Part shown: piece by piece, positions 16,863 to 19,011 of the stretch
How the letters are laid out: each line of letters begins with the position of its first letter
Numbering within the stretch: position 1 is the stretch's first letter
Assembly: GCF_000283655.1 (NCBI RefSeq)
Contig: NC_016622.1
Location: 446,501-510,500 of the forward strand
Length of the DNA stretch: 64,000 bases
Source: Azospirillum lipoferum 4B
Lineage (GTDB): Bacteria > Pseudomonadota > Alphaproteobacteria > Azospirillales > Azospirillaceae
Direction: 5' to 3'
The notes under the pieces: model-generated
The model's database searches: none
What the model was told of the DNA's origin: nothing
What the model saw: the letters and a program-made list of their open reading frames with translations, nothing else
Translations under genes and position numbers: made by a program

Positions 16863-17999
16863 TCAGATGCAGTAGTGCTGCAGCGGCGCGAAGCCGTTGA
16901 AGCAGACGGCCGAGTAGGTCGTGGTGTAGGCACCGGTGGCGTGGATGCGCACGCGGTCGCCGGCCTTCAGACCCATCGGCATCTTGTAGTCGGCACGCTC
17001 ATACAGCACGTCGGCGCTGTCGCAGGTCGGACCGGCCAGGATCACCGCCTCGCGGTCTTCTTCCTGCTCATCGCCCAGCACCTCGATCGGGTACTGGATC
17101 GCCTCGTCCATCGTCTCGGCCAGACCGCCGAACTTGCCGATGTCCAGATAGACCCAGCGCTTGGGATCCTCGGCCGACTTGCGCGACACCAGGACCACTT
17201 CGCTCTCGATGATGCCGGCACTGCCGACCATGCCGCGGCCGGGCTCCACGATGGTTTCCGGCAGGTGGTTGCCGAAGTGGGTGCGCAGCGAGTCGAAGAT
17301 CGCCTGGCCGTAGGCGGTGCATTCCGGCACGTCGGTGCGGTAGCGGGTGGGGAAGCCGCCGCCCAGGTTGATCATGCCCAGGTCGACGCCCAGCACCTCA
17401 AGCTCGCGGAACAACTGCGCCACCTGGAAGATGGCGTGGTCCCACTGCATCAGGTCCTTCTGCTGCGAGCCGACATGGAAGGACACGCCATAGGGCTGCA
17501 CGTCCATGTCGCGGGCCTTCAGCAGCAGCTCGCGCGCCATCGTCAGGTCGCAGCCGAACTTGCGCGACAGCGGCCATTCGGCGCCTTCGCCCGAGGTCAG
17601 GATGCGGCAGAAGACGCGGGCGCCGGGGGCGGCGCGCTCGATCTTCTCCAGCTCCGGCTCGCTGTCGAAGGCGAACAGGCGCACGCCCAGCTCATAGGCG
17701 CGGCGGATGTCGCCTTCCTTCTTGATGGTGTTGCCGAAGGAGATGCGGTCCGGGGTGGCACCGGCGGCCAGCGCCATCTGGATTTCCGGAACCGAGGCGC
17801 AGTCGAAGGCGGAGCCGAGACGGGCCAGCAGGCTGAGGATTTCCGCGGCCGGGTTCGCCTTCACCGCATAGAAGATGCGGGCATCGGGCAGGGCGTCGTG
17901 CAGATCGTTGTAGTTCTGCTCGACGACATCCAGGTCGATGACGAGGCAAGGGGTCTGCGGGCGCTGCTCTTGGAAAAAGCGCGCAATCTTCTGGGTCAT
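16863..17999 (-). CDS. Ornithine (or ornithine/lysine) decarboxylase, alanine-racemase fold
   Basis: PLP enzyme of 378 residues making putrescine from ornithine. Landmarks: Schiff-base lysine K47 in YAVKANP, H175 in SFHVGSQQ, the phosphate-binding EPGRGMVGSAG (E252), and the active-site CDSADVLY (C326, D327), which is the group IV ODC signature. Related alphaproteobacterial enzymes may also take lysine, so specificity is not settled. A leader of about 300 nt with a small ORF precedes it, and a strong terminator follows. In alphaproteobacteria this gene is often called speF/odc. Confidence 0.92.
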   Translation of the reverse strand: MTQKIARFFQEQRPQTPCLVIDLDVVEQNYNDLHDALPDARIFYAVKANPAAEILSLLARLGSAFDCASVPEIQMALAAGATPDRISFGNTIKKEGDIRRAYELGVRLFAFDSEPELEKIERAAPGARVFCRILTSGEGAEWPLSRKFGCDLTMARELLLKARDMDVQPYGVSFHVGSQQKDLMQWDHAIFQVAQLFRELEVLGVDLGMINLGGGFPTRYRTDVPECTAYGQAIFDSLRTHFGNHLPETIVEPGRGMVGSAGIIESEVVLVSRKSAEDPKRWVYLDIGKFGGLAETMDEAIQYPIEVLGDEQEEDREAVILAGPTCDSADVLYERADYKMPMGLKAGDRVRIHATGAYTTTYSAVCFNGFAPLQHYCI

Positions 18000-18070
18000 C
18001 TCAGTCTCCTGGGACGCAAGATGATGGAACGGAATGGGTGAAGTCGGGGGGGACGGAGCGGCCGGGCGGG

Positions 18071-18099
18071 CCGATCAGCAACTGAAAAAGCTGATCAGG
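18071..18099 (-). promoter_or_regulatory. Hairpin in the ODC leader, overlapping the leader-ORF stop
   Basis: GATCAGC pairs with GCTGATC across a 10-nt loop (U-rich in the RNA), extended by two pairs after one bulge. The TGA of the leader ORF lies in the 5' arm, so a ribosome at the stop codon would cover it. Confidence 0.5.
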
Positions 18100-18217
18100 C
18101 GCTCAGGCCGCCAATACTGGATTGCCCCGTACAGAACCCTGTTCTGTCCGTTTGGTCCAGGAGCGGCAGATTTCGGAGACGGGTGAGCACGCGCCCACCC
18201 ACAACAACATCAACCAT
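18095..18217 (-). CDS. Putative leader peptide upstream of ornithine decarboxylase
   Basis: Forty-codon ORF starting with MVDVVVGG, with an Arg/Leu-rich middle (RVLTRLRNLPLL) and ending GGLSA. A perfect GGAGG lies 5 nt before its ATG, better than that of the ODC gene itself. It ends about 95 nt before the ODC start, and its stop codon lies in a hairpin. Alphaproteobacterial ODC genes have a described conserved 5' leader motif (speF leader), and E. coli speF is controlled by an ornithine-sensing arrest peptide; this ORF could act in a comparable way. Translation is not shown by sequence alone. Confidence 0.5.
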   Translation of the reverse strand: MVDVVVGGRVLTRLRNLPLLDQTDRTGFCTGQSSIGGLSA

Positions 18218-18341
18218 CGTAACCTCCAAGTCGCCGCCTTGTTTAAGGGACGGTCGGGGATCACGCGTTACGTCGTTGCATAACCACATCTCGGAGACGC
18301 CGAGGGGCGGGCCAGCGGCACGTGCGCTTGCGAGTTCGCGT

Positions 18342-18369
18342 TACATAGATCCAACGCGTTCGATTGCAA
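18342..18369 (-). promoter_or_regulatory. Candidate promoter of the ODC leader transcript
   Basis: On the minus strand TTGCAA, 16-bp spacer, TATGTA. It would give a leader of about 335 nt containing the small ORF and hairpin. Confidence 0.4.
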
Positions 18370-18438
18370 AGTGAAAAATGCCGCATGCCCCAAAAAAGTG
18401 GCAGACCATTTGAGGGGCCAAAAAACCGGAGCGATTTC

Positions 18439-19011
18439 ATGGGCTTGACCACGGTTCTGACGATGGAGGAGATCGGATTGCGGCTGCTGGCTGCAGCCTT
18501 CTGCGGTGCGCTGCTCGGGCTTGACCGCGAGATGCGCGGCAAGGCGGCCGGCTTGCGCACGCACACGCTGATTTCCATCAGCTGCGCCCTGACGACTCTG
18601 GTGGCGCTGGAGCTCTATGTCGGCCTGCATACCGGCGGCGACGAGCGGCCGAGCGACCCGGTGCGCGTCATTCAGGGCGTGGCCCAGGCGGTCGGCTTCA
18701 TCAGCGCCGGTGTGATGTTCCGTTCCGGCGACAGCGTGCGCGGGGCGACGACCGCCGCGGTGATCTGGGTGGCGGGCGGGCTGGGCATCGCCTGCGGTGC
18801 CGGATACTACCTGCTGGCGGGGATGGCGCTGGCCCTGTGCCTGATGGTGACGATCCTGTTCACCGTCCTGATGGACCGTTTCCCGCAGTTCGGCAAGGAG
18901 GACGGGGACGGCGGCAGGGTCGACGACGACCGCAAGCTGCGGGAGCGGCGCCGCGCCGCCCGCCCGCCGGGCCGGGTCAGGCGGATCGCCCGTCCCGCGC
19001 CGCGGGGATGA
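18439..19011 (+). CDS. MgtC/SapB-family membrane protein
   Basis: Inner-membrane protein of 190 residues with four or five helices. The start region LRLLAAAFCGALLGLDREMRGKAAGLRTHTLI is the MgtC signature, followed by VAQAVGFISAGVMFRSGDSVRGATTAA. Family members are tied to Mg2+ limitation, acid tolerance and intracellular survival. Start chosen for GGAG 8 bp upstream; eight residues further in is another Met. An Arg-rich tail overlaps the converging MFS gene by 35 bp. The 220 bp before it holds no clear promoter on this strand. Confidence 0.87.
   Translation: MGLTTVLTMEEIGLRLLAAAFCGALLGLDREMRGKAAGLRTHTLISISCALTTLVALELYVGLHTGGDERPSDPVRVIQGVAQAVGFISAGVMFRSGDSVRGATTAAVIWVAGGLGIACGAGYYLLAGMALALCLMVTILFTVLMDRFPQFGKEDGDGGRVDDDRKLRERRRAARPPGRVRRIARPAPRG

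Follow-up and report, generated by a model that had tools for sequence, protein, structure and literature searches.

The window analysed here comprises 64,000 nucleotides (nt) of the Azospirillum lipoferum 4B genome (NC_016622.1, positions 446,501 to 510,500) and carries, on its minus strand, a gene for a fold-III, pyridoxal phosphate (PLP)-dependent ornithine decarboxylase (ODC). Ahead of this gene lies a leader that contains a structured 5′ RNA domain and an upstream open reading frame (uORF). We favour, with moderate confidence, the view that the leader is a two-stage, translation-based attenuator of ODC, in which an RNA gate would control initiation at the uORF and the ribosome would then pause before a hairpin. 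Comparison between relatives points to this through a conserved domain with predicted pairing of a Shine–Dalgarno (SD) sequence, a uORF kept in frame, an end motif that contains AGU, a hairpin that covaries in Azospirillum and an association with ODC genes.

The uORF, its end motif and the hairpin at its stop codon

The preliminary description of this DNA had placed a 40-codon ORF with a GGAGG ribosome-binding site ahead of the ODC gene, with its stop codon in the 5′ arm of a hairpin, and both assignments were borne out (Table 1). Relatives were gathered by a protein search with ODC, taking the best 80 loci among the matches listed (L numbers denote leader/ODC loci and G numbers genomes in the comparison set). 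The start of each uORF was assigned by rule, as the first AUG located 50–110 nt past the 5′ box GCAACGACG with an SD-like word before it. Both 5′ boxes, CGCACGUGCC and GCAACGACG, were present in 238 loci, and a start was assigned in 186 of them, giving 139 distinct peptides; the other 52, nearly all of the speF type, had no AUG that satisfied the rule. We counted 127 of the peptides as separate uORFs, although L212, one of their number, proved to be a long and unrelated ORF; in the remaining 12 we judged that the uORF is fused with ODC or that ODC stands in its place. The 123 distinct uORFs referred to below are those for which an ODC was located.

The word AGTAT provides the clearest indication of a maintained reading frame. 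When all frames between the uORF start and ODC were considered, 62 of 63 occurrences fell in frame 0, and the lone out-of-frame case (L242), like the in-frame ones of L208 and L209, lies past the uORF stop. Inside the 123 uORFs, AGTAT was in frame in 60 of 60 cases, no frame-breaking occurrence being seen, and in 56 of these it encodes the end of a [S/T]-S-[I/M] motif. The distance from AUG to AGT took 18 values between 27 and 153 nt, every one of them divisible by three (L294 and L295 included). The chance of such frame-keeping is about (1/3)^17 if the distances are independent, a figure that the relatedness of the sequences makes optimistic. In-frame conservation, which the preliminary description had named as a check on its ORF, is seen across many lineages even though length varies, from 28 to 55 codons in the motif-bearing uORFs.

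Of the 123 distinct uORFs, 56 carried [S/T]-S-[I/M] within their last 12 residues, whereas residue shuffles averaged 0.8 and never exceeded 4; 0 to 5 residues separate S-[IM] from the stop. The motif Ser codon was AGT in all 56 cases; elsewhere, AGT makes up 2.1% of Ser codons (47 of 2205) in the downstream ODC genes and 15% (18 of 119) in uORF middles. A looser form of the motif gave 69 cases, with AGT as the Ser codon in 67 and TCG in 2, and here the preceding codon could be any of the six Ser codons, or ACC, ATA or ATC. Because the preceding Ser uses all six of its codons, the first motif residue appears to be under selection; selection seems to act on the amino acid at this residue and on the codon at the second. 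On the strength of these comparisons, the uORF is under selection.

The hairpin that follows the motif is also beyond chance. In the window, the segment from motif to hairpin has a stability z score of −3.9. Across 37 motif-bearing representatives the segment after AGT gave z scores from −0.5 to −5.5; with AGTAT held fixed, 33 of the 37 fell below −2 (median −3.4), and the first stem had a median of 21 pairs, compared with 14 in shuffles. Covariation was assessed in 21 of 25 distinct Azospirillum-type tails (L011, L092, L095 and L142 were dropped). In these, 89.8% of cells were paired, falling to 19–51% when the partner strand was slid, although the structure was drawn from the window's own fold, which favours the former figure. 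Twenty cells were changed on both sides; shuffles gave 7.8, and none of 500 reached the observed number. The covariation score was 0.160 compared with 0.109. The same 21 tails gave no excess in pairs changed on both sides (3 versus 2.3) or in further pair types (9 versus 11.6), and the A-U/G-C exchange at columns 18–59 (9 and 9 sequences) also fits an LNA/LSA alternation at the end of the peptide. A fixed geometry of stop codon and hairpin had been expected in the preliminary description; the arrangement is kept in Azospirillum, but the stop itself shifts relative to the motif. When a ribosome decodes the AGU codon, the base of the hairpin would be near its mRNA entrance.

Downstream of the hairpin, the 50-nt C-rich stretch has an excess of C over G, (C − G)/50, of 0.42, compared with a control mean of 0.11 and a maximum of 0.24 in the ODC coding sequence. 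A scan of positions 17950 to 18450, covering the window's leader alone, revealed no intrinsic terminator. Pairing of the uORF with the ODC SD was examined as an expression platform and rejected, since it was not consistent (median z −0.27 over 36 representatives). It is strong in a few lineages, e.g. L013, L079 and L203; in L079 and L203, the duplex of the uORF and the ODC SD region reaches −25.2 kcal/mol (z −3.0 and −3.8).

The middle of the uORF behaves differently from its end. Its richness in Arg and Leu, remarked on in the preliminary description, is literally true (15.1% and 14.0% of the middle residues of 42 Azospirillum-like uORFs), but the codon-type substitutions anticipated there were not seen: omega, the ratio of nonsynonymous to synonymous substitution, was 0.99 in 11 divergent representatives. 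The 29 distinct sequences of 40 codons gave a frame-0 omega of 0.85, or 0.70 for codons 9–32. The middle residues vary between lineages, and by these measures the uORF middle is neutral, with no amino-acid constraint; its Arg/Leu richness is therefore uninformative and its Arg/Leu codons are unlikely to be a sensor. The N-terminal MV[D/H]VVVGG is explained, at least in part, by RNA pairing, since the fold predicted for the window joins GCAACGACG to the uORF bases UGUUGUUGU.

The structured 5′ domain and the occurrence of the leader

The 5′ domain is the most conserved part of the leader. In predicted folds of 46 divergent cores, the SD of either the uORF or ODC was paired in 44, compared with 50% when the upstream part was shuffled. 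The core helix, UCCUUUUUGG:CCGAGAGGGA plus an apical stem, had 86.4% of cells paired over 26 of the 46 cores, a set that represents one sequence type and leaves aside the window's core. RNAalifold returned almost no supported pairs on the first 17-sequence alignment, we think because distant leaders were misaligned, and nothing useful on the 46 cores. Most class-level leaders also have an outer stem, GACGC:GCGUC; we do not claim it, as it is nearly invariant and swapped rows pair equally well. The folding energy of the 370-nt leader as a whole is −145.9 kcal/mol (z −2.62), a value matched by 2 of 100 shuffles.

In 12 distinct cases (L214, L216, L219, L222, L224, L226, L227, L229, L247, L248, L249 and L251) there is no separate uORF, and the domain is followed immediately either by ODC itself or by an ODC that carries an in-frame N-terminal extension. 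In 11 of them, the ORF downstream of the domain continues in frame into ODC; in L251, the AUG of ODC itself is located 5 nt past the AUG picked by the rule. The uORF seems, from these sequences, to have been fused or lost. These 12 cases are our strongest hint that the domain is an initiation gate in its own right, and they lend weight to an alternative that we regard as possible but less probable, namely that the 5′ RNA domain alone regulates, as a riboswitch or protein-binding element, while the uORF merely relays ribosomes to the hairpin with a peptide that senses nothing. The conservation of the domain and the neutral peptide middle are in keeping with this. Ribosome transit alone, however, hardly explains a [ST]S[IM] end in which all six Ser codons precede a nearly invariant AGU. 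A ligand for such a riboswitch was sought in a different RNA, the Agrobacterium tumefaciens speF leader, and none of the polyamine-pathway ligands reported as tested bound it (PMC1273637).

How far the leader extends was examined by sequence and model searches. The same order of leader parts was observed in L001–L021, from Azospirillum, Skermanella and other, mostly Rhodospirillales, genomes and metagenome-assembled genomes (the contig stretch of L016 starts inside the leader). L033, L056, L059 and L079 of the 80 loci were aligned together with these, and 17 of the 26 aligned leaders, after near-duplicates and the cut L016 had been dropped, were used to build a covariance model, R1, which has 11 base pairs and hence is mostly a sequence profile. 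At an E-value of 0.01, R1 matched 82 of 82 genomes of the order, all from one family (G056 only at 0.0076), with at least two matches in 70 of the 82. Across the class, it matched 59 of 385 sampled genomes, 5 of them from the window's family. The exact two-box 5′ pattern was present in 61 of the 385 class genomes compared with 8 genomes for a reversed control pattern; some forward matches, e.g. in G085, G177 and G089, resemble chance matches within genes. A third R1 match in G080 (L130) is located inside a long unrelated ORF and was taken as chance.

An ODC homologue follows in 137 of 139 leader loci (L081–L219 minus L130, plus the window, some genomes being counted twice), the exceptions being L125 and L212. 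Neither the retrieved stretches of L290 and L293 nor L291 and L296, both contig-end pieces, yielded an ODC homologue, and in L244 and L246 the homologue is about 1.6 kb away from the leader. The leader may govern a wider polyamine operon, as L125, L244 and L246 would allow. ODC genes that lack such a leader also exist: neither CAACGA nor GCACGTG was present in 11 of 20 further upstream regions, which were picked mainly from ODCs with no R1 or pattern match nearby. The upstream regions of L301, L302 and L303 have none of the standard boxes and share a common element (CCACGTGCC or CCACGTACC, then AACGAGG, then ACGGTGCG), which may be a further diverged form of the leader.

A weaker, second R1 match in genomes of the family precedes a paralogous fold-III decarboxylase, about 28–34% identical to the window's ODC. 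The paralogue follows in 29 of 30 second-copy loci among the genomes examined (L111–L129 and L180–L190 included); in the exception, L125, the first long ORF after the leader is a different gene, which we take, by sequence recognition, to encode homospermidine synthase. The uORFs of this second copy are short, 22 of 26 distinct peptides having 11 or 12 codons (e.g. MYAAHGGAVRR and MLALHGRALRR), and many end like RA[LV]RR. In-frame AGTAT is lacking in all but two of the 26. One copy-2 peptide, L129, ends in MSI encoded with AGT ATC, and so links copy 2 to the long uORF type. Several copy-2 stop codons seem, by eye, to fall within a small GGGC...GCCC hairpin.

The downstream gene is named ODC because the solved structures nearest to its product are those of lysine/ornithine and ornithine decarboxylases (E 1.9e-58) and because the preliminary description labelled it so; no curated model stands behind the name, as each of seven NCBIfam families scored under its cut-off (best lysA, 197.5 of 297.9 bits). 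We take the enzyme to be of a different family from the speF enzyme of Escherichia coli and Salmonella. The features of the locus are listed in Table 1. The distance from the uORF stop to the ODC start is 95 nt. A divergent ORF of 215 aa (18364–19011, plus strand) begins just upstream of the leader, and its product looks, by eye, like an MgtC/SapB-type membrane protein.

Table 1. Features of the ODC gene and its leader, in window coordinates
Feature	Position	Strand	Basis or remark
Fold-III, PLP-dependent ODC, 378 aa, regulated gene	16863..17999	−	ORF list
ODC ribosome-binding region CAGGAGACTGAG	18000..18011	−	sequence; similar in Azospirillum relatives
Putative Rho loading region: C-rich, G-poor, between hairpin and ODC	18021..18070	−	
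Covarying hairpin; uORF UGA (18097–18095) in 5′ arm	18057..18112	−	fold and covariation
uORF, 40 codons, AUG start, UGA stop	18095..18217	−	peptide MVDVVVGGRVLTRLRNLPLLDQTDRTGFCTGQSSIGGLSA
C-terminal motif codons TCC AGT ATT (S-S-I)	18113..18121	−	directly 5′ of hairpin
uORF SD sequence GGAGG	18223..18227	−	paired in predicted fold
Conserved structured 5′ domain, helices over uORF SD and early codons	18212..18326	−	comparison and predicted fold
5′ box GCAACGACG	18279–18271	−	within structured 5′ domain
5′ box CGCACGUGCC	18326–18317	−	within structured 5′ domain

Comparison with known ODC leaders

The preliminary description had raised the known speF leader as a candidate identity. Rfam models gave no match in the window at the gathering threshold, and neither speF (RF00518) nor ar45 (RF02347) matched between positions 17500 and 18900 even at an E-value of 10; a speF scan of 20 further loci brought only L270 close (36.2 of 37 bits). 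Both ar45 and speF matched in 10 of 20 loci scanned, mostly Rhizobiales by title (L023, a Thalassospira locus, and L028, L031, L035, L038, L043, L046, L051, L065 and L072). What survives of the suggestion is the likeness in parts. Like our leader, speF and ar45 stand upstream of a fold-III ODC and have, in the same order, CGCACGUGCC near the 5′ end, a stem with a variable insertion, GCAACGACG, a U-rich strand and an SD-like GAAGAGG; the ar45 consensus contains the first two boxes. The window also has the parts that characterise RF00518: a 5′ box, a stem with an insertion, a long stem-loop (here predicted, over the SD) and a fold-III ODC downstream. We infer kinship from the order and wording of the boxes, rather than from model score, because R1 reached speF-type loci, 19 in number, only at E-values of 0.2 or worse.

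The speF leaders differ in that no reading frame is kept to the words TCTCCA/TTCCAC: in Rhizobiales-type leaders these fall in all three frames relative to a putative UUG start, so we make no claim that the two kinds of leader share a peptide. The speF-type leaders of L023–L080 have a conserved SD-like GAAGAGG and, after it, UUGCC, which reads M-P-x-V-R in many and meets early stops in some. When the speF leader was reported in 2005, no ligand was given for it (Corbino 2005, PMC1273637), and a 2020 paper still described its function as unclear (PMC7717549).

The novelty claimed for a peptide-bearing leader in this lineage is reduced by the odc1 (uORF-25-1) motif published in 2021, an alphaproteobacterial ODC leader with 272 representatives, a uORF and the ribosome-binding site in a stem (PMC8632094). 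As described there, odc1 has two UUG starts two nucleotides apart, both used in reporter fusions in E. coli, a fixed 11-aa uORF and the main ORF beside it. Our leader resembles odc1 in being an alphaproteobacterial ODC leader with a uORF and an SD predicted to be sequestered in a stem (44 of 46 cores). It differs in its AUG-started uORF (40 codons in the window), in the 95 nt between stop and ODC, in the hairpin and in the SS[IM] end. On that published description the two leaders differ in architecture, and no dual-UUG, odc1-like leader was recognised by eye in 20 further ODC upstream regions. We found no description of this uORF, the SS[IM] motif or an Azospirillum ODC leader in the titles and abstract openings of the mainly open-access literature searched. 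The main text of a Sinorhizobium meliloti ribosome profiling study mentions leader peptides, with no mention there of ornithine or odc2 (PMC10117765).

Translated leaders ahead of ODC genes bear on two further alternatives. It is unlikely, in our view, that the uORF encodes a ligand-dependent arrest peptide like SpeFL or TnaC, in which ornithine or a polyamine in the exit tunnel would stall the ribosome at the uORF end. The position of the uORF before ODC, its conserved C-terminal residues, a stop codon close behind S-[IM] and, in part of the leaders, a C-rich region after the uORF would all suit such a peptide. Against this, a motif-to-stop distance of 0 to 5 residues is unlike a fixed termination arrest, and the middle contains no conserved sensor segment. 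H-x-R-R, the sensor motif of SpeFL, was present in none of the 59 motif-bearing uORFs. The likeness to E. coli SpeFL and Salmonella orf34 is that of a uORF before an ODC gene (PMC8429421, PMC6386406). Classical charged-tRNA attenuation, with arginine or another amino acid sensed through runs of codons, has a precedent in the two consecutive Arg codons of orf34 (PMC6386406), and Azospirillum uORFs contain TRLR; we nevertheless consider it very improbable, since RR is found in only 12 of the 59 motif-bearing uORFs, the window's not among them, and the middle residues change from lineage to lineage.

Another parallel in form is Bordetella CruR (DUF2946), which has a tolerant stretch, a C>G bubble and, at its C-terminal end, a conserved stall motif (PMC9426467). 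The present uORF resembles it in this layout. CruR has a RAPP stall and a CXXC copper sensor, whereas RAPP was found in none of the 59 uORFs. As regards leader-peptide attenuators in general, the comparison shows a kept uORF frame and a covarying hairpin, with no general alternative pairing of the ODC SD and no terminator found in the window's leader. Finally, a chance origin of the uORF, as an open frame within a structured RNA that is conserved entirely at the RNA level, would agree with a middle omega near 1 and with the pairing of early uORF codons to GCAACGACG in the window's fold, but is scarcely credible given a frame kept over 18 ATG-to-AGTAT distances, whereas the speF leader words fall in all frames.

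Proposed mechanism and its meaning

In the two-stage attenuator that we favour, the 5′ domain would fold so as to pair the uORF SD and first codons, as sequence and predicted fold suggest, and some signal of polyamine state would open or close it. A ribosome that had initiated would then translate a spacer peptide of free sequence and arrive at [S/T]-S(AGU)-[I/M] near the hairpin. There, before the stable hairpin at the stop codon, it would pause or stall, and its waiting would decide whether the hairpin forms and whether the downstream C-rich region is exposed, probably to Rho. The outcome would be whether RNA polymerase and ribosomes reach ODC. Pausing, the direction of the effect, Rho and the ligand are what we infer here. 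By analogy, Salmonella orf34, whose translation is reported to counter Rho and to help unfold a structure over the speF ribosome-binding site (PMC6386406), and Bordetella CruR (PMC9426467) could serve as models, since both operate through a translating ribosome and Rho.

Several observations weigh against this mechanism. In-frame AGTAT is missing from 63 of the 123 distinct uORFs, including those of Skermanella and most short copy-2 uORFs. Substitutions provide no coding signal, because omega in frame 0 of the 11 divergent representatives is about 1 and that of frame 2 is lower (0.78). The first paired base is located 0 to 10 nt past the A of AGT in predicted folds of all 37 motif-bearing representatives, but shuffled segments also start a stem within 10 nt of AGT in 85% of cases; the position of the hairpin is weak by itself, and therefore only its stability and covariation are used as evidence. 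Covariation of the core helix in the 5′ domain is modest, with 14 cells compared with 6.7 (2 of 500), and because sliding by −1 gives 22 cells, pairing lends the helix more support than compensation does. The excess of C over G exceeded the control 95th percentile in only 71 of 118 leaders and is absent in the motif-bearing L056 and L059, so that Rho is plausible in Azospirillum and may or may not act in other lineages. Nor does the uORF pair consistently with the ODC SD, as described above.

A broader view, which we offer tentatively, is that an alphaproteobacteria-wide superfamily of leaders, of which speF/ar45 and perhaps odc1 would be local forms, shares the RNA gate. Azospirillum and others would have coupled this gate to a new stall element, the [S/T]S(AGU)[I/M]-hairpin, which would differ from amino-acid-run attenuators and SpeFL-type sensors alike and would report polyamine state to ODC.

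If it is true that the element gates translation of the leader ORF, searches for a ligand of the classical riboswitch kind may have targeted the wrong step. Moreover, a functional uORF with a neutral middle can be recognised by frame-keeping over many spacer lengths rather than by dN/dS. The AGU-hairpin junction provides a precise and cheap point of test, which would open polyamine control in plant-associated Azospirillum to direct tests.

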